From positions 1 through 64,000 of the forward strand of contig CANQUC010000004.1 of NCBI GenBank assembly GCA_947626945.1: a stretch of 64,000 nucleotides of DNA, read 5' to 3'. The stretch is from an uncultured Lachnospiraceae bacterium. GTDB lineage: Bacteria; Bacillota; Clostridia; Lachnospirales; Lachnospiraceae. How positions within the stretch are numbered: position 1 is the stretch's first letter; each line of letters starts with the position of its first letter. A program made the translations under genes and the position numbers. Below the pieces are notes generated by a model, which saw only the letters and a program-made list of their open reading frames with translations, searched no databases and was not told the origin of the DNA. Below are positions 53,340 to 64,000 of the stretch, one piece after another.

Positions 53340-54338
53340 CTACCGCCCTGCGGACGGCCCGGGAGACGGCGCCGGGATGGGCTCGGGCGAAGCCTCCGGC
53401 ACCGGCGCGATGGCGGCGGGCACCGCTGTGGCAGGGGCAGGCGTCTCAGGCGCGGCCGTAGGCGTGATCTCGTCCTTGTAGACCAGTCTTCCCTGCAGCA
53501 CCAGACGGTAGTCTCCCCCGGCGCTTGTACAGGTACAGAGGGTGATGATCTCATCGGTATCGGCAGGCGTCACCCCTGTCTCATACTTGGTCTGAGATTT
53601 CATTTTCTGCAGATAGGCCGTGTACTCCGGCCCCGGAGCCGCAAACCAGGTAAAGGTATCCGATGTATAAAGGGTCTCATGGACGCTGAAGATCTGATAA
53701 CGGTATTTGCCGTTTGGCGTATAATACCAGAAAAACTCATTGCCTGGAAAATACGCGGCGTCCTTGTATTTCCGAAGAGATCCGAACATGGTGCCGTTTC
53801 TCATGTTGTGGCCGTAAATGATCGTATTGGTATGGCTGTGGCCGTCCCTGATCATACCCTCCACATAGATCTCGCCATAAATGTCCGACGCGCCGCTGAT
53901 GTCATGCTTCAGATAAAAATCACTGCCCGCCCGGTACAGCACCGGATAACTTACCACAGGAAGGGTTTCAAATTCCAGATAACCGATCACTTCGCTGTTC
54001 TTTGCTTTCCAGGCGGCAAAATCCACGTTTCGGATGGCGTAATTGGGATTCAGGGGGATGGGATAGAGAAAACCGGACCGCAGGGCCGCAAGTCCCCCGT
54101 TTACGTCGGTCAGATACCTGGGCCAGTTTGGATCCTCCGGCCGCCAGGGCCCGTCCTCCTCAAACGCCATATGGAGATACCGGTAATGCGGCAGCTCTTC
54201 ATCGATCATTGCCTGAATAAACGGATCTCTTTGTCCCGGCTTCAGGAAATAATTGTATAGCTCCAGTCCCATCAGGACAACGGCGCCCACGATCACCACC
54301 GCCAGGCAGACGACAATGATCTTCTTTCCCCTACTCAA
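53340..54338 (-). CDS. Class B sortase
   Basis: A membrane-anchored transpeptidase of 332 residues. The N-terminal helix spans about 7-24. The sortase core has His177 in IIYGHNM, Cys270 in TLCTC and Arg278 in GGDYRLV, the catalytic trio. Class B is suggested by the long N-terminal part and the DxxGxIYV-like segment. After residue 290 comes an unusual 40-residue tail rich in Pro, Ala, Thr and Glu. The start is TTG 54338, nine bases after AAGGA. It follows the cysteine desulfurase gene. No substrate with a sorting signal lies nearby. Confidence 0.88.
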   Translation of the reverse strand: MSRGKKIIVVCLAVVIVGAVVLMGLELYNYFLKPGQRDPFIQAMIDEELPHYRYLHMAFEEDGPWRPEDPNWPRYLTDVNGGLAALRSGFLYPIPLNPNYAIRNVDFAAWKAKNSEVIGYLEFETLPVVSYPVLYRAGSDFYLKHDISGASDIYGEIYVEGMIRDGHSHTNTIIYGHNMRNGTMFGSLRKYKDAAYFPGNEFFWYYTPNGKYRYQIFSVHETLYTSDTFTWFAAPGPEYTAYLQKMKSQTKYETGVTPADTDEIITLCTCTSAGGDYRLVLQGRLVYKDEITPTAAPETPAPATAVPAAIAPVPEASPEPIPAPSPGPSAGR

Positions 54339-57456: not shown

Positions 57457-58098
57457 ATGAGTACAAAGATTCCCATAGAGATCTCTGCGAGACATGTCCA
57501 TCTTTCGCAAAGTGATTTTGAATATCTGTTTGGAAAGGGCGCCCAGCTGACGCCCGCAAAAGAACTGAGCCAGCCCGGCCAGTATCTTGCCAAGGAGCGC
57601 ATCACCATTATCGGCCCCAAAGGCCGGTTTGAAAACATTGCGGTTCTGGGCCCTTTCCGTAAGGAAACCCAGGTGGAGCTTGCCATCACCGACACGAGAA
57701 AATTCGGCGTCAAAAGCGTGATCCGCCAGTCCGGCGATATCGCGGACACCCCCGGCTGCACCCTGTCCGCCAACGGAAAAACCCTGGACATTCCAAGAGG
57801 GGTCATTGTTGCCAAACGCCATATCCACATGACGCCCAGCGACGCCATCCGCCTTCATGTGGCGGACAACGACGAAGTGTTTGTCATTACGGAAAGCTAT
57901 GAACGGGCGCTGATCTACGCGGATGTGGTAGTCCGCGTACACAAAGACTTCCGCCTGGCCATGCACGTTGATACCGACGAGGGCAACGCCTTTGCCAGCG
58001 ATGACAACCCCTACGGCGTCATCCTCAAACTGTTTGACGGCAGCGCCTACAATCTGCATATGTGGGCGGAAGAACTGCTGGAGGGGATCCAGCGTTAG
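57457..58098 (+). CDS. pduL: Phosphate propanoyltransferase (PduL-type phosphotransacylase)
   Basis: An enzyme of 213 residues that exchanges phosphate and CoA on short acyl groups (acetyl or propionyl). Two PduL repeats are visible, each with zinc-binding histidines: SARHVHLSQSD near the start and AKRHIHMTPSD in the middle, plus a His near the C-terminus (YNLHMW). There is no long N-terminal encapsulation peptide and no shell protein gene nearby, so this is a free cytoplasmic enzyme probably serving acetate or propionate metabolism. AAAGGAG precedes ATG 57457. The stop overlaps the S26 peptidase stop on the other strand by four bases. Confidence 0.92.
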   Translation: MSTKIPIEISARHVHLSQSDFEYLFGKGAQLTPAKELSQPGQYLAKERITIIGPKGRFENIAVLGPFRKETQVELAITDTRKFGVKSVIRQSGDIADTPGCTLSANGKTLDIPRGVIVAKRHIHMTPSDAIRLHVADNDEVFVITESYERALIYADVVVRVHKDFRLAMHVDTDEGNAFASDDNPYGVILKLFDGSAYNLHMWAEELLEGIQR

Positions 58099-58556
58099 GT
58101 TCTGTTTTTCAGCAGTTTTTTGATCTTTGCAAGGGGAATCTGGATCCAGGGCCGGATGGGCCGAAGCAGCAGCCACAAACCGGCGGCTCCCCGGTACAGG
58201 GGATTTTTTACGGAAACAGTTTTCCCCTTTCTCACAAAAGCTGTCAGCACGCCTCTGATCTGATCCGCCTCCAGGGGGCCCTCCACTTCCGTCTGATTAT
58301 CTCCTACGAAATAAAACCCTTCTCCCTTTTTTTTCCATATGCGGTGCAGCACCAGGATGCTTTCTTTCCGCCTGTAAAGCGCCACGTCTCCCCGCTTCAG
58401 TCCGGCAGGATCCGCGGGAGCGATCACCGCCTGATCCCGGCCGGGAGTAAACAGCGGATACATGCTGAATCCCCGGGGCGACACCTGCACAGTCTTTCCT
58501 TCCATCAGCAGCTTTTCCAGGTCCATTGGGATGGCTTCTGTCATTTCTTTTTCCAT
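58095..58556 (-). CDS. S24/S26-family signal peptidase-like protein, Ser/His type
   Basis: A protein of 153 residues resembling SipW/ER-type signal peptidases. The nucleophile Ser31 lies in RGFSMYPLF and His71 in LVLHRIW takes the place of the usual lysine. GDVALYRR and the YFVGDNQ box follow the family. There is no N-terminal membrane helix. A hydrophobic, proline-containing stretch at about 125-142 and a basic end could touch the membrane. Together with the neighbouring leader-bearing proteins it may be the leader protease (inference). Similar small S26 proteins accompany peptide-maturation clusters. The ribosome binding site is weak. Confidence 0.7.
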   Translation of the reverse strand: MEKEMTEAIPMDLEKLLMEGKTVQVSPRGFSMYPLFTPGRDQAVIAPADPAGLKRGDVALYRRKESILVLHRIWKKKGEGFYFVGDNQTEVEGPLEADQIRGVLTAFVRKGKTVSVKNPLYRGAAGLWLLLRPIRPWIQIPLAKIKKLLKNRT

Positions 58557-58672
58557 AAAATTTTCATTCCCGTTTTCCGGCAGCTTTGCTTTCTGCCTTT
58601 ATTGATAAGAATATTGTAGCATTCATTCAAAAAAAATGCTATAATGGTTTTATCTATTTGGGGGGATCACTC

Positions 58673-59836
58673 ATGAGAGCCAATCAGGATTATCTGTTAA
58701 AAGAAATCACCGGCATATACTATCTGCTCCCCTACGGGCAGAATATCGCCGATCTGAAACGGGGCATCCGGATCAATGAAACCGGCGCTTACATCTGGAC
58801 GCTGCTGCAAAACGAGCAGGATCCGGACACGCTTCTGGATTGCCTTGCCCATCGCTATCAGGCTTTTCAAAAAGACCGGGCAGTGCTGGAAAAGGATATG
58901 GGACGGTTTCTCAATCTTTTGCGTACATACGGGATGCTTTTGGACGATTCTCTTCCGGAGGCCGCCAATGAGCCCTGCTTCTGCTGTCTGAAGATCGGAG
59001 GCCTTCACATCAGCCTCTGCGGACCGGAACCGGTTTTCTCAAAAGACTTTTTTCCCTATCGGACAGATCTGACGGATCACGGGGATCTGAACGTACAGGT
59101 TCATATCGGAGCGCCCCGAAAAACCAAAAACGGCCCTCTGATCCTCCGGAACAGAGAGCTGATTATCTGTGATCTGGACAGGGAATACCTGATCCTGTTT
59201 CCAAAAGCCGAACAGATCGTGGAAGCCCACCTTTCCAAAGAGGGCAGCCGTATTGATTTTTACTGCCGTCCGCCTTTTTCGGAGTCTCTTGCGGCAGATC
59301 TGTTTCACGCCATCCGGCTGGCATTTTTGTATCTGGCGCAAAAACACGGGCTGTTTGCGCTGCATTCGGCTTCCGTTCTGTACAAAGAACGGGCATGGCT
59401 GTTTGCCGGCCACTCCGGCATGGGCAAATCCACTCATGTCAAGCTCTGGAACCGGCTTTACGGCGTTCCTGTCCTGAACGGAGACCTGAATCTGCTGGTC
59501 ATGGAAAAGGGCGTTCCAAAAGTATGCGGTACTCCCTGGTGCGGCACTTCCGGCATTTCCGATCCCCAGAATCGCCCTTTGGGCGGCATCATTCTTCTTG
59601 GACGCTCTGTGGACAATGTCTGCGAAGAGCTGTCTCCCGATGAAAAAGCGCTGCTGATCATGCAGCGCCTGATCTCTCCTTCCTGGACGGAAGAACTGTT
59701 TGATCGCAATCTTGCTTTTTCCGAAGAACTGGCCGCGCACACGGCTGTCTGCCGTCTGCGCTGCAACAAGGAGCCCTCCGCGGCCAAAACCGCCAAGGCA
59801 TGGGTGGATCATATCCAGCCGGGCCCCGCTTCCTGA
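58673..59836 (+). CDS. PqqD-like/HPr kinase-like fusion protein
   Basis: A protein of 387 residues. The N-terminal 90 residues look like a PqqD-type leader-recognition domain (YYLLPYGQNIADLKRGIRIN, then IWTLLQ). The C-terminal half resembles HPr kinase: HSASVL with His231, Walker A AGHSGMGKST at about 245-254, and a Walker-B-like LNGDLNLL with Asp271. Related kinases phosphorylate some lasso peptides. Here it probably binds a shared leader and modifies the attached chain (inference). GGGGGG precedes ATG 58673. A TATAAT at 58640-58645 with a poor -35 may be the promoter. It is the only plus-strand gene of the right-end cluster. Confidence 0.7.
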   Translation: MRANQDYLLKEITGIYYLLPYGQNIADLKRGIRINETGAYIWTLLQNEQDPDTLLDCLAHRYQAFQKDRAVLEKDMGRFLNLLRTYGMLLDDSLPEAANEPCFCCLKIGGLHISLCGPEPVFSKDFFPYRTDLTDHGDLNVQVHIGAPRKTKNGPLILRNRELIICDLDREYLILFPKAEQIVEAHLSKEGSRIDFYCRPPFSESLAADLFHAIRLAFLYLAQKHGLFALHSASVLYKERAWLFAGHSGMGKSTHVKLWNRLYGVPVLNGDLNLLVMEKGVPKVCGTPWCGTSGISDPQNRPLGGIILLGRSVDNVCEELSPDEKALLIMQRLISPSWTEELFDRNLAFSEELAAHTAVCRLRCNKEPSAAKTAKAWVDHIQPGPAS

Positions 59837-59869
59837 CAAACCGGGTCTTTTCCGGTCTTATAAAGGCTT

Positions 59870-60862
59870 TTATGCGCCCACAGCCCAGGGCGCATATTTT
59901 TTTACCGCCCAGGCAGGCAGAGCGAGAAGCGCTGCCGACAACACCATACAGCAAACAGGCAGGATCCACTGACTGGCAATCCCCACCCGCTGACAGACTC
60001 CATAAAACACAATGCGGACCACGCCCCCAAAGGCGTAATAAAACAACGTATTGGCTCCCAGAAAAGACAGGATTTTTCGAAAGCCGGTTCCGGCAAGCCG
60101 CTTTGCCCCGTAAAGCACAGGCAGCAGAATCACCAGAGACAAAACAAAAAAGCACAGCGGCGCCGGAAAACGCTGGGCATGAATGTCCGTCCCGCCCGGC
60201 GAAACTAACACCAGAGCCACATACGCCGCCAGAAGAAGCAGGATCACCGCCGGCTTCTCGGCTTTTTTTCGGATCGGTTCTTCATACTGTCTGTACAGAT
60301 ACCCAAGAGCCATATAAAACACCATTGCGCAGGCAAGCTCCAGCTGCCAGACGCATTTCACCTTCCAGACGCACATATCCAAAGCTCCCAGTATCATCAG
60401 CCCAAAAGACAGGCCCAGCAAAAGGGCGTCTTTCCAGCGCCCGCCAACCTTGTCCCGCGCCTTTATGAGCCCGTAAAACAGCAGGGAGCTTACAAACAGA
60501 CAGGACACAAACCACAGTTCGTCGTCACGGCAGCAGATCTGCAGGAGAAACCCGATCACTCTGCCCTTTAAGCTGCCGCCGCCCATGACATAAGCCATGG
60601 CCACCCGTATGAACCCCAGTACAAAAAAAGGGATCAGAAGCCTTTTTGCCTTGTTCTTCAAAAAAGCGGAAAAACTGCTTTTTGTGGAAAAGGTGTAGCC
60701 GGAAGCAAAGAAAAACATGGTCAGAAAAAAGGGCGTGAAAAATCGCCTGTAAAGCTCCGGCGGATAGCTGTGGCTCAAGATCACACAGAGGATCAGGATC
60801 CCTTTCAGCACATCCAGCCATTGGATTCTGTTTTTTTCCGTTTTTTTCATTTCCTGTTCCAT
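59870..60862 (-). CDS. Acyltransferase family 3 membrane protein
   Basis: A protein of 330 residues with about ten membrane helices. The N-terminal WLDVLKGILILCVILSHS with its histidine is the typical start of acyltransferase 3 (OafA/YrhL-like) proteins, followed by FTPFFLTMFFFASGYTF. They move acyl groups to sugars or other exported compounds. AAAGGA lies at good spacing before ATG 60862. The gene lies 35 bases after the ABC exporter, so it belongs to the leader-protein cluster by position, and its acceptor might be one of those products. Confidence 0.8.
   Translation of the reverse strand: MEQEMKKTEKNRIQWLDVLKGILILCVILSHSYPPELYRRFFTPFFLTMFFFASGYTFSTKSSFSAFLKNKAKRLLIPFFVLGFIRVAMAYVMGGGSLKGRVIGFLLQICCRDDELWFVSCLFVSSLLFYGLIKARDKVGGRWKDALLLGLSFGLMILGALDMCVWKVKCVWQLELACAMVFYMALGYLYRQYEEPIRKKAEKPAVILLLLAAYVALVLVSPGGTDIHAQRFPAPLCFFVLSLVILLPVLYGAKRLAGTGFRKILSFLGANTLFYYAFGGVVRIVFYGVCQRVGIASQWILPVCCMVLSAALLALPAWAVKKYAPWAVGA
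59872..59903 (+). terminator. Terminator after the PqqD/HPr kinase-like gene
   Basis: ATGCGCCC (59872-59879) pairs with GGGCGCAT (59888-59895), followed by a T-run. It overlaps the last codons of the acyltransferase gene on the other strand. Confidence 0.8.
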
Positions 60863-60897
60863 GTGGTTTTCCTTTCCTGATCTTTCCGGCCCCGGGA

Positions 60898-62676
60898 TCA
60901 GAAATCCCGCACCATTCTGTCAATCTCGTCCTCATTTAACAGCACGCATTTCCTGTCCCGGATGGCGTATACCCGATTGCAGATATTTAAAACGGTAGGC
61001 CTGTGGGTAGTCACCACACAGGTACGGGGATAGCTGTCCCGCATAATATTTTTCAGAACTTTCCGTTCTGTGGCCACGTCCAGAGCCGAGGTGGCCTCAT
61101 CCAGAAGCAGCACCGGTGATTTGCGCAGAAGCGCTCTGGCAATGGAAAGCCGCTGGGCCTGTCCCTCGGAGAAACCGCCGCCCCGCTCCTTGATTACGCT
61201 GTTGATCCCGTCGGGAAGCTTTTCCACAAACTCCCAGGCGCAGGCCATCTTTAAGACTTCCTCAATTTCCTGATCGGTCGCGTCCTCTTTTACGTTCCGC
61301 ATGTTTTCCGCAATGGTTCCCGAAAACATGGTATTGCCCTGGGGCACATAGGAAAACAGCTTTCTGGTAGAAGGCCCCAGCGGAATCTCATCGGCAAAGG
61401 TCTCCCCTTTTCTTCCGCCGCACACCGCCGCCATGCCGTCCTGAGCAGGTATCAGCGACAGCAGCAGGCGGAGCATGGTAGTCTTTCCCTCTCCCGAGGG
61501 CCCTACCAGCGCCACCACCTCATGGGGATCCGCCTTCATGGACGCGCCGTCAAATACAAGGGTGCCTGTTTTGTATGCGTATTTCACCTGATCCAGACGC
61601 AGGCTGACCCCTTCTTCCCTGTGCTTTTCCGCGAACCGCAGCACCAGATCGTCATCGCTGTAGTCCTCCCGGGGCATTTCCACAATATCCATAAGACGTC
61701 CGGCGGAAGTGGTAAGCCCGATCACCCCGGGCACAAGGGAAGTCAGATTGTGAAGAGTCCCGGTAAGCTGGCCGGACAGGCCCAGGAACATGGTCATGGT
61801 ACCGTAGCTGATGGCCCCGCTCCAGACCCGGTAAATCCCCCAGCCGTAAGAAAGATAGGACACCACAAGGCCCACGGTGTTCAAAAGCAGGGAGGTTCCC
61901 ATAGACATTTTCTGAAAATCCAGCTTCATGTGAATGTAATCCTTTTGCAGCTGTTTCAGATTGGCAATATACAGACGGATCAGGTCAAAGGCCTTGATGG
62001 TCTGAATATTGGAAAAAGCTTCCTGATTAAACCCGGACATTTTTGCCGCCATGGCTGCGCTGCGCTTGTTATTATTGACCATACGCCGCATCAGCGTCTT
62101 GGACAGCAGCAGGCTTACCGGCATGCCCAGAAAAGCAAACAGGGCAAAGGTCCAGTCGTGATAAACCACCATGGCAAAGGTACTGATAAACCGGAACAGA
62201 TAAATAATGGTATTGGGAATAAAGCTCAGCACACCGCTGGAAATCGTGGAAGCGTCGGAGCTCCACCTGGTCAGCAGATCTCCCGTATGATAGTTGGTGA
62301 GAGATTCCCAGTCTGTTACCAGGATCTTTTCAAAAATATCCGCCTTGATCTCCGAATCCACCCGCATGCTGACCCAGGTGGACGCGTAATCCGAAAGCAT
62401 GCTCAGCAGCGTGGTGACCACATTCAGAACGATCATAGTCACAAAGGTTTTGACCACTTCTCCGGTCTGTCTTCCGGTAATGATATCCACCAGATCCTTG
62501 GATACCAGGCTGGTGATCAGACCGATCACGGTGCCGACCAATCCAAGAGCCGTATAAAATACCATGGCAAGCCAGTATCGCTTCGCATATCCGTAAATCC
62601 ACCTGATCTGCTTTCTCATCTCCTGGAGCCTGCCTGCCCGGATACGGGAAAAGATAAATTTCAGCTTTTCTTTCAT
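60898..62676 (-). CDS. ABC exporter with fused membrane and ATPase domains
   Basis: A 592-residue half-transporter of the exporter (MsbA/LmrA-like) class. Six helices fill roughly residues 35-310. The ATPase domain has Walker A LVGPSGEGKTT, the Q loop YVPQGN, signature FSEGQAQR (Glu for the second Gly of LSGGQ), Walker B VLLLDEATSALD and the H loop TTHRP. There is no C39 peptidase domain, so leader removal must be done by another enzyme, perhaps the S26 protein nearby. The gene follows the leader-protein genes, separated by a terminator hairpin. Confidence 0.9.
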   Translation of the reverse strand: MKEKLKFIFSRIRAGRLQEMRKQIRWIYGYAKRYWLAMVFYTALGLVGTVIGLITSLVSKDLVDIITGRQTGEVVKTFVTMIVLNVVTTLLSMLSDYASTWVSMRVDSEIKADIFEKILVTDWESLTNYHTGDLLTRWSSDASTISSGVLSFIPNTIIYLFRFISTFAMVVYHDWTFALFAFLGMPVSLLLSKTLMRRMVNNNKRSAAMAAKMSGFNQEAFSNIQTIKAFDLIRLYIANLKQLQKDYIHMKLDFQKMSMGTSLLLNTVGLVVSYLSYGWGIYRVWSGAISYGTMTMFLGLSGQLTGTLHNLTSLVPGVIGLTTSAGRLMDIVEMPREDYSDDDLVLRFAEKHREEGVSLRLDQVKYAYKTGTLVFDGASMKADPHEVVALVGPSGEGKTTMLRLLLSLIPAQDGMAAVCGGRKGETFADEIPLGPSTRKLFSYVPQGNTMFSGTIAENMRNVKEDATDQEIEEVLKMACAWEFVEKLPDGINSVIKERGGGFSEGQAQRLSIARALLRKSPVLLLDEATSALDVATERKVLKNIMRDSYPRTCVVTTHRPTVLNICNRVYAIRDRKCVLLNEDEIDRMVRDF

Positions 62677-62697
62677 GAATACGCCATCCCCAAATAC

Positions 62698-62752
62698 ACA
62701 AAAAAAGGCGCTGCAAAACGGGAACTTTCTCTTTTTCCCAATTTTGCAGCAC
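62698..62752 (-). terminator. Terminator between leader protein 1 and the ABC exporter
   Basis: GCTGCAAAA (62742-62750, read on the minus strand) pairs with TTTTGCAGC (62710-62718). An inner GGGAA/TTCCC extension follows, then a run of seven T. It likely limits readthrough, giving more precursor than exporter. Confidence 0.85.
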
Positions 62753-62808
62753 CCGTCTGATCATTTGAAACCGTCAGGCTTCAGCAGCATCGCCAAACCC
62801 CGTAACGA

Positions 62809-63249
62809 TTAGTCAAGTTTGCCCTGTACGTTGGTCTCATGCAGGCAGGTGATCGTGGCGCCTGTGCATGCGAGAGCTCTTGTAGTCGCTTCGTCGCCGG
62901 TGCTGACCCATACCTTGTAGGTCATGAGATCGCCGGACTTATATGCGTCTGCAAGCAGCGTTCTTGTAATGGTAACCGTGTTGCCGCTCACCTGCGTGTC
63001 AAACTCTGAACACGCGTTTGACAGGTTGGCACTGAATGTAAGCACAACTGTGGTAGAACCGGAAATGTGCTCAGCAGCAACATTGTGCGTACAACGAATC
63101 TCAAACACCTTATGGCTTCCATTCCAAGCCTGAACAGCCACCGGATTAACGGTCCAGCAGTTTGTGGAGCTCTGGGCGCCGCTGGCGGCGTATACGCCCT
63201 CTGCCAGTTCATCATTGGCAACCACAACAGGGGCTTCATACTTGTTCAT
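62809..63249 (-). CDS. Leader-bearing exported protein 1 (EGVYAASG leader, beta-rich body)
   Basis: A protein of 146 residues. Residues 1-24 are a leader ending in EGVYAASG, 19 of 24 identical to the next gene's leader. The rest, 25-146, is rich in Thr, Ser and Val, with alternating patterns (VFEIRCTHN, TTVVLTFSAN, NTVTITRTL, MTYKVWVST) that suggest a beta-sandwich, and five cysteines at about 31, 53, 80, 128 and 135. It is far larger than a classical peptide core. AxA before Ser-Gly could be a cleavage site. GGGAGG precedes ATG 63249. I do not recognise the body. Confidence 0.75.
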   Translation of the reverse strand: MNKYEAPVVVANDELAEGVYAASGAQSSTNCWTVNPVAVQAWNGSHKVFEIRCTHNVAAEHISGSTTVVLTFSANLSNACSEFDTQVSGNTVTITRTLLADAYKSGDLMTYKVWVSTGDEATTRALACTGATITCLHETNVQGKLD

Positions 63250-63267
63250 TTTAATTCCTCCCAAAAC

Positions 63268-63311
63268 AAAACTCTCATAAAACTCTCATACAGGCCGAAA
63301 CAGTTCGGCCT
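63268..63311. repeat. Direct repeat and hairpin between the two leader-protein genes
   Basis: AAAACTCTCAT occurs twice in tandem (63268-63278 and 63279-63289). Next to it AGGCCGAA (63292-63299) pairs with TTCGGCCT (63304-63311) around a four-base loop. On the minus strand there is no T-run directly after the stem, so it may be an RNA-stability hairpin rather than a terminator. Confidence 0.6.
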
Positions 63312-63361
63312 TTTACTTCCAATAAACATCTCACCCATGACGCTCTCGCGCCGACTTTCCA

Positions 63362-63709
63362 TTACATGTTCCAATCAGTTACAGGATCGTTGGGCCCATA
63401 GCCCTTTGCCTCCCATGAGGGTTTCCGCTTGCCATTGTCTACATCATAGCTGGACGCGTTGCCGGATTCAACATAGTGGGTTGTCAACCCACAGGCATCC
63501 GCTGTGAAAGCGGGACAGCCAAGGCAGCCAAACTGCTGCTTGTAGCCACGGGTTACCCCTGCCCAGTCAGAATAGTCAGGTGCCTGATAAGTTCCCTGCA
63601 TGTAAATGCTGTCGCATCCGATGGCATTTTCCACAGTACCGCTGGCGGCGTATACGCCTTCTGACATTTCTTCGTTGGCCATTACAACAGGCGCTTCGTA
63701 TTTCCTCAT
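63362..63709 (-). CDS. Leader-bearing exported protein 2 (EGVYAASG leader, short Cys/Tyr-rich body)
   Basis: A protein of 115 residues. Its leader, 1-24, nearly matches that of protein 1, while the body is unrelated: Cys at 32, 62, 65 and 73, the last three in FGCLGCPAF and ADACG, with many Tyr, Gly and Asp residues. The shared leader with different bodies implies one set of maturation or export proteins serving several products. GGGGAGG precedes ATG 63709, behind the strongest promoter in the region. The body is not recognised. A modified peptide, a surface protein or a bacteriocin are all possible. Confidence 0.75.
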   Translation of the reverse strand: MRKYEAPVVMANEEMSEGVYAASGTVENAIGCDSIYMQGTYQAPDYSDWAGVTRGYKQQFGCLGCPAFTADACGLTTHYVESGNASSYDVDNGKRKPSWEAKGYGPNDPVTDWNM

Positions 63710-63763
63710 TTTAAATTCCTCCCCTCTCCAATATTTCACCCATAAGCATCTATAATTGTATTT

Positions 63764-63793
63764 ATTATATAATAAATCATCATTCTCTGTCAA
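63764..63793 (-). promoter_or_regulatory. Strong promoter of the leader-protein genes
   Basis: On the minus strand a perfect TTGACA (63788-63793) and a perfect TATAAT (63764-63769) are 18 bases apart, 54 bases before the ATG of protein 2. Confidence 0.75.
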
Positions 63794-63866
63794 CAGTCCA
63801 AAGCCGGGTTTTCCATTTTTTTCCGACTCTTTTTTCTTTTTCAGAATCCCAAAAAAGGCCTGCCGT

Positions 63867-64000
63867 CTACTGTTCAAAAAGCCGGAGCTTTTCCATGAGC
63901 TTACTGCGGCTGCCCGCCTTTTTCAACACTTTGATGGTGGAAACGTTCCGCAGTTTTCTGTTGTTGCGGAGAAAACGGATCAGGGTCATGATCCAGAGCG
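63867..64000 (-). CDS. C-terminal end of an unidentified gene, cut by the window edge
   Basis: The minus-strand frame ending in TAG at 63867-63869 is open to the window edge. The visible 43 residues are very basic and helical (LIRFLRNNRKLRNVSTIKVL, then KLMEKLRLFEQ). They suit the tail of a cytoplasmic enzyme or a membrane-proximal segment. The family cannot be told from this. Its orientation and position put it upstream of the leader-protein genes, so it may be another member of that cluster. Confidence 0.5.
   Translation of the reverse strand, partial: LWIMTLIRFLRNNRKLRNVSTIKVLKKAGSRSKLMEKLRLFEQ

Follow-up and report, generated by a model that had tools for sequence, protein, structure and literature searches.

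The locus

At the end of the window analysed here, which spans the first 64 kb of contig C4 (88,251 bases) from an uncultured Lachnospiraceae bacterium (genome 2.07 Mb, 98% complete), lies a candidate system for leader-directed protein modification, processing and export. Its two precursor genes share a 24-residue leader, and beside them are genes for a fusion of a PqqD domain, a RiPP (ribosomally synthesized and post-translationally modified peptide) recognition element (RRE), with an HprK-like kinase region, and for a peptidase, an ATP-binding cassette (ABC) exporter and a nucleotidyltransferase:

58095..58556, minus strand: S26 peptidase (archaeal-type signal peptidase I-like, LppS-like), 153 aa; TIGR02228 E 2.9e-9 (below cut-off)
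58673..59836, plus strand: PqqD (RRE) plus HprK-like kinase fusion, 387 aa; PqqD E 5e-10
59870..60862, minus strand: membrane acyltransferase (Acyl_transf_3), accessory; PF01757 E 6.7e-25
60898..62676, minus strand: MsbA-like ABC exporter, no C39 peptidase domain, 592 aa; PF00664, PF00005
62701..62750, minus strand: intrinsic-terminator-like hairpin, by RNA folding, separating the precursor genes from that of the exporter
62809..63249, minus strand: precursor B, 146 aa, a 24-residue leader and a 122-aa beta-sandwich body (class B)
63362..63709, minus strand: precursor A, 115 aa, a 24-residue leader and a 91-aa four-Cys body (class A)
63867..64000, minus strand: NTP_transf_5 nucleotidyltransferase, 3' end in the window (whole gene 63867-65060 of contig C4); PF14907 E 8e-35

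Both precursor genes have an ATG start preceded by a clear GGAGG-type ribosome site, and the true start of the open reading frame (ORF) at 62809 lies at 63249, giving the 146-aa product. The hairpin (-27.9 kcal/mol, z -5.5) is followed by a U run; standing before the exporter gene, it may set precursor output higher than that of the exporter. Past the window edge, the NTP_transf_5 gene is followed by glycosyltransferase-like and flippase-like genes and genes for DUF4832/DUF4874 proteins, and then by a Pel operon.

A shared leader on different bodies

The two leaders, MNKYEAPVVVANDELAEGVYAASG and MRKYEAPVVMANEEMSEGVYAASG, agree in 19 of their 24 residues, and in an all-against-all search the two bodies land in different clusters; the recount and the clustering bear out the initial annotation of the window, which had described a common leader on unrelated bodies. 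The consensus drawn from 42 leader proteins reads KxYE[KR]PxVxxxxxxAEGV[YF]AASG. The proline is present in 41 of these, the Glu of EGV, Ser23 and Gly24 in all 42 (numbering shifted one residue back in G136), and conservation ends at Gly24. Ser23 is never replaced by Thr and is the sole hydroxyl common to all leaders besides the RRE-binding Tyr4. A literature text search for EGVYAASG turned up no paper.

The 42 bodies divide into one large class (22 members), the four-Cys class A (nine), a small four-Cys class (three), a pair and six singletons. In classes A and B the body is a conserved domain and not a hypervariable core. Some leader genes lie on other contigs or at a distance from the system (G036, G031, G024, G343 and G428), and one system may thus serve cargo encoded in trans, as expected of an address tag. 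Searched by sequence against the PDB, bodies A and B gave no convincing match. The structure model of body A is poor (pLDDT 49). An AlphaFold2 model of body B is a beta-sandwich (pLDDT 85, pTM 0.80), for which a fold search placed CBM2-type cellulose/chitin-binding domains at the top (Foldseek E about 1e-4, Z 9.0-9.2; 6qfs at 2.5 A over 96 residues). On this model, a carbohydrate-binding cargo beside an exopolysaccharide operon would be an attractive but unproven idea.

Co-occurrence across genomes

A profile of 12 leaders, searched against 397 genomes of the family Lachnospiraceae with a match defined as E 1e-5 or better, retrieved leaders from 23 genomes. The PqqD-kinase fusion was found near full length in 25 of the 397, including 22 of the leader genomes (the G252 match, in two pieces but in one ORF, was counted), and the sole leader genome without it is 68% complete. 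The association has a Fisher p of 7e-32, or 3e-23 without the seven seed genomes, both raw values that ignore ancestry. The ABC exporter accompanies the leader in 22 of 23 genomes (52-97% identical), the S26 peptidase in 19, and NTP_transf_5 homologues lie near leader genes in 15; where the exporter, peptidase or nucleotidyltransferase is missing, a contig end or the limit of the retrieved stretch mostly truncates the locus. The initial annotation had proposed this genome search for the leader motif and its neighbours, with the idea that proteins of different kinds are sent by a common leader to a single kinase or tailoring enzyme, a single protease and a single exporter, and the counts support such routing.

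These data also bear on whether the leader could be the ordinary N-terminus of one protein fold, its neighbours being unrelated to it. One broad class does take in 22 of the 42 bodies, but the same leader also precedes members of three multi-member classes, a pair and six singletons, by itself predicts the fusion outside the seed genomes, and fits the YxxP motif bound by RREs. Leader genes occurring widely without the neighbours, which the initial annotation had named as one finding that would sink the system idea, were not seen in these genomes. Given the unrelated bodies and the co-occurrence, we reject the ordinary N-terminus as extremely improbable.

Beyond the family, 391 genomes of the class were searched, and the matches there were all weak and short. 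In G452, from another family of the class (L115, L121 and L122), there are three matches, including 48-49 aa peptides, whose leader is related but not the same (MKNYIKPTANVNSFVSENVIAASG...); these peptides are encoded directly downstream of genes for large, secreted-looking proteins.

Modification, protease and export genes

In the fusion protein, the PqqD domain occupies residues 58-118, scoring above cut-off, and is followed by a P-loop kinase-like region. Its best PDB match is the lasso RRE TbiB1 (E 1.3e-4), followed by chain 9x8z (E 0.0018), which from its name and residue spacing we read as LppB, the RRE of the Linear Polyphosphorylated Peptide (LPP) pathway. LppB uses D70 and N33 to hold the Tyr and Pro of the leader (PMC13381572). 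Located on the 9x8z segment via their spacing of 37, these positions are kept in the fused RREs of most homologues (N33 in 19 of 23, D70 in 21 of 23). The kinase is fused to PqqD in the window protein and 22 relatives, and a split form is found in G260, G049 and the Butyrivibrio plasmid pNP243.

The peptidase was initially annotated as a Ser/His enzyme of family S26, which 22 homologues corroborate: Ser and His are invariant among them and a GD motif is present in 21. Its best model, TIGR02228, is that of archaeal signal peptidase I. The exporter matches MsbA_rel (E 4e-70, under the equivalog cut-off), and in a domain search only ABC_membrane and ABC_tran score above cut-off, in agreement with the earlier reading of an exporter lacking C39; with no C39 domain on the ABC exporter, double-glycine-type export of the C39 (PCAT) kind was rejected. 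The membrane acyltransferase, which the initial annotation had listed among the neighbouring genes, is present among the loci only in G000 and G001, the two genomes of the source genus examined, and we do not regard it as a core gene.

The split system of pNP243 (L123, from Butyrivibrio fibrisolvens D1) has separate genes for PqqD, an HprK-like kinase and an S26 peptidase, with the exporter in two ORFs; its precursor is Cys-rich, 57 aa long (MKKAYVKPELKASMNGTLEGVYACPDY...), and the same plasmid holds a lasso-like set. Apart from this Butyrivibrio relative, plasmid records yielded only distant hits. Near related PqqD/S26/ABC sets, three further proteins (L095:10225-11037, L106:6883-7689 and L109:7111-8028) carry an N-terminal leader-like YxKPx[VL] stretch, e.g. 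MSKKVYNKPQVTLEEL. They adjoin response-regulator-like genes, and the corresponding site in pNP243 has an annotated histidine kinase; these proteins are possibly another RRE client.

Linkage to the Pel operon

The operon past the window is of the Gram-positive type, known as pelDEADAFG (PMC7112168). It encodes, in addition to an 86-aa PqqD protein, PelD with an SDR domain, a PelE-like protein, an 800-aa membrane protein, a PelA-like DUF2194 protein, PelF and PelG. PelD with its N-terminal SDR domain and the PelE-like, PelA-like, PelF and PelG proteins are shared with the operon of PMC7112168; unlike that operon, the present one has a PqqD gene before pelD and, downstream, the leader system, and the paper does not mention PqqD. 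PelG (PF16933) is encoded in 70 of the 397 family genomes, comprising all 23 leader genomes and 47 of the 374 others (raw p 1.5e-19), and in leader genomes it lies mostly on the same contig, within 5-20 kb.

The discrete PqqD gene stands upstream of pelD in 20 of 22 assessable leader genomes, at a spacing of about 30 bases or less, or overlapping, in 19 and of 505 bases in one; it was not found before pelD in G343 and G428, and the G027 locus is cut. No PqqD gene precedes pelD in about 44 leader-less Pel operons, including seven whose PelD is 47-50% identical to that of the window genome, as judged with a profile made from leader genomes, which a very divergent PqqD could escape. The pel-operon PqqD proteins match 9x8z (E 1.4e-7) and lasso RREs, and D70 is invariant among 16 that were aligned, with the Asn present in most; each is possibly a discrete LppB counterpart. 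A literature search for PqqD with the pel operon gave nothing but an unrelated Pseudomonas paper. The 800-aa membrane protein (L004:4887-7277 and relatives), without a Pfam match, is encoded between the PelE-like and PelA-like genes of leader-type pel operons; in several leader-less pel operons it is represented only by a 22-29% identical relative, at another position.

We report a strong tie, not described in the papers searched, of an LPP-type system to the Pel operon. Its presence in every leader genome of the sample, the RRE at the operon head and the carbohydrate-binding-like cargo fold suggest a concrete, testable function for LPP; since the gene set is found within the family almost only in Pel-carrying genomes, a biofilm role can be tested.

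An antimicrobial or signalling system, with bacteriocin-like or signal cargo and a Pel linkage that is incidental to a shared polysaccharide island, would account for several features of these loci: LPP loci in Bacilli are patchy, a distribution typical of conflict genes (PMC13381572), several kinds of cargo occur per locus, and class A and C cargo is small and Cys-rich. We consider it unlikely. PelG is present in all leader genomes and PqqD is the first pel-operon gene in most, the bodies of classes A and B are not hypervariable cores, and no extra immunity-like gene was noticed to recur beside the cargo, although no systematic search for one was made.

Comparison with known pathways

The closest known counterpart is the LPP pathway of Bacilli, published in May 2026 with the P. 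alginolyticus lpp cluster (PMC13381572). Its gene set, found in polysaccharide loci, comprises a SpI-like peptidase, an RRE, an HprK-like kinase, an NTP transferase, an MsbA-like exporter and one to three precursors of 35-200 aa with YxxPxV leaders (YxxPxVLxHQxIxFETxxS) (PMC13381572). The RRE presents the leader, the kinase puts several phosphates on core Ser3 of LppA (S3T and S3Y stay unmodified), and the peptidase cleaves after FET (PMC13381572). The role of LPP is unknown, and its discoverers call a biofilm role tempting but untested (PMC13381572). The main text of that paper makes no mention of Clostridia, kinase-RRE fusions or Pel.

The present system shares with LPP the core gene kinds, the YxxPxV leader, an RRE with N33 and D70, a Ser-His-type S26 leader peptidase, a conserved Ser ending the common N-terminal block, an MsbA-like exporter, the polysaccharide neighbourhood and the lack of a cyclase; this likeness is drawn from parts lists, with direct sequence comparison to lpp proteins confined to the RRE segment of 9x8z. 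Precursor number and length, YxxPx[VIL] and the conserved Ser are also as in LPP, with HQxIxFET replaced: the leader block is EGV[YF]xASG here as opposed to HQxIxFETxxS. LPP has a separate HprK-like kinase, whereas here one RRE is fused to the kinase and a second, discrete one belongs to the pel operon. Further differences from LPP are cargo whose bodies measure 53-138 aa and belong to recurrent families, one with a CBM2-like model, the association with Pel, and the occurrence in Lachnospiraceae. Because the separate-kinase feature fails and the leader block differs, we place the system as a variant, most likely a clostridial branch of LPP and not a new kind of system. Past position 64000, where the initial annotation had suggested reading on, lie the rest of the NTP_transf_5 gene, a core member, and the Pel operon; that annotation lacked the LPP counterpart, the nucleotidyltransferase and the Pel/PqqD companion. 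The pathway is extended to Lachnospiraceae, where a single leader serves several protein families that are unrelated to each other and in part encoded in trans.

Lasso peptide pathways of the paeninodin-like and pseudomycoidin kinds combine a PqqD-type RRE, an HprK-like kinase with a reported His-Lys-Asp-Asp motif, a nucleotidyltransferase-like enzyme, an exporter and a [Y/W]xxP leader, and yield a phosphorylated Ser. In pseudomycoidin, the nucleotidyltransferase PsmN adds hexoses to phosphoserine (PMC9266682). The RRE, kinase, nucleotidyltransferase-like enzyme, exporter and [Y/W]xxP-type leader all have their like here; in contrast to lasso pathways, an S26 protease takes the place of B2, the cargo is far larger than lasso cores, and the leader motif has Tyr, not the Trp of paeninodin. 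Neither a macrolactam cyclase, which the initial annotation had likewise failed to see, nor a B2 cysteine protease was recognised among the ORFs around the precursors (system genes were searched against Pfam and NCBIfam; others were read or compared with queries), and a lasso peptide identity was rejected on these grounds. The HPr-rel-A system also pairs an HprK-related kinase (TIGR04352) with a PqqD partner. On the window fusion protein TIGR04352 scores 13 bits against a cut-off of 200, far under the family threshold, and the present system is defined by its S26 peptidase, exporter and leader cargo.

Proposed pathway

Gene content, leader conservation, co-occurrence, the RRE residues and the Pel linkage are established at the level of sequence. 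They make it quite probable that the locus encodes a clostridial form of an LPP-type system, in which a leader directs modification, processing and export, most likely of matrix cargo. Its steps, modelled on LPP and lasso biochemistry, would be as follows. RRE (PqqD) domains would bind YxxPx[VIL] of the shared leader, and the fused HprK-like kinase would phosphorylate the invariant Ser23 in EGV[YF]xASG. The NTP_transf_5 enzyme would then put a sugar or nucleotide on the Ser23 phosphate, the S26 peptidase would cleave in or beside the EGVYAASG block, and the MsbA-like exporter would secrete the cargo. That cargo would be of several unrelated kinds, some encoded elsewhere in the genome, and from context and fold would most likely act in or on the Pel matrix.

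With one kinase and unrelated bodies, the acceptor must be in the shared part; by analogy, Ser23 is likely the phosphate acceptor, and its correspondence to LppA Ser3 is the best-supported reading. Since PsmN adds hexoses to phosphoserine, Ser23 might plausibly bear a phospho-sugar. A product that retains Ser23 would require cleavage ahead of it; for a cut after residue 22, the aromatic residue 20 and the small residue 22 would resemble F-3 and T-1 of LPP.

Several findings weigh against this reading in one part or another. Three fusion genomes lack a leader match: G136 has a divergent leader protein (no YxxP) beside the fusion and no PelG, and G051 and G025 carry the fusion alone. The CBM2 likeness of body B is one of fold only, at a Z of about 9, with other sandwiches, such as mu-homology domains, reaching Z 8.5, and in sequence body B matches no Pfam family above cut-off, no CBM family and no PDB entry. 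The peptidase could cut after residue 21, 22 or 24. The Pel and PqqD associations partly reflect shared ancestry, because of which the evidence is weaker than the raw p-values make it look. Five changes of the leader label are needed on a PelD tree, and the ancestry-corrected test for the leader and the pel-operon PqqD has only four independent pairs on supported branches, nearly all in the same direction (sign test p 0.125), a number that puts significance out of reach. Corrected for ancestry, the Pel link rests on about four independent co-changes, in which the tree shows joint loss or gain.

The kinase is the other point of doubt. Of the initially annotated PqqD/HPr-kinase-like fusion, the PqqD half stands firmly; the kinase half is weakly matched by HprK-related models (HprK_rel_A/B; the best E, 6.6e-6, belongs to one homologue), one Asp of the lasso-kinase motif seems replaced (NGD), and a few fusion homologues deviate in the motifs searched (G252, G294, G398, G430 and G136). 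These features would suit a kinase that is inactive or has another substrate, the fusion being a leader-binding export chaperone in a pathway of leader-guided secretion and trimming without phosphorylation. Yet HSAS, the P-loop SGxGKST, NGD and GxPWCG are retained in most of the 23 fusion homologues, down to about 30% identity, Ser23 is strictly invariant though it has no RRE role, and a nucleotidyltransferase of the PsmN kind, which acts on phosphoserine in the lasso pathway, lies near the leader genes in 15 leader genomes. We accordingly think it improbable that the pathway operates without phosphorylation.

Going further, the phosphorylating LPP-type system could be an RRE-guided route to partners of Pel, in which CBM-like and Cys-rich proteins would be tagged with phosphate and sugar on an N-terminal serine, trimmed, exported along with Pel and then retained in its matrix or attached to it. 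The pel-operon PqqD might then deliver leader proteins to the Pel machinery or tie processing to Pel production. We offer this extension tentatively, as a conjecture that may well fail; if true, it would mean that biofilm matrix proteins can arise by a RiPP-type route.

A few kb from the system, at window positions 53340-54338, lies a class B sortase-like gene (TIGR03064 below cut-off) with a 68% identical homologue in G001.

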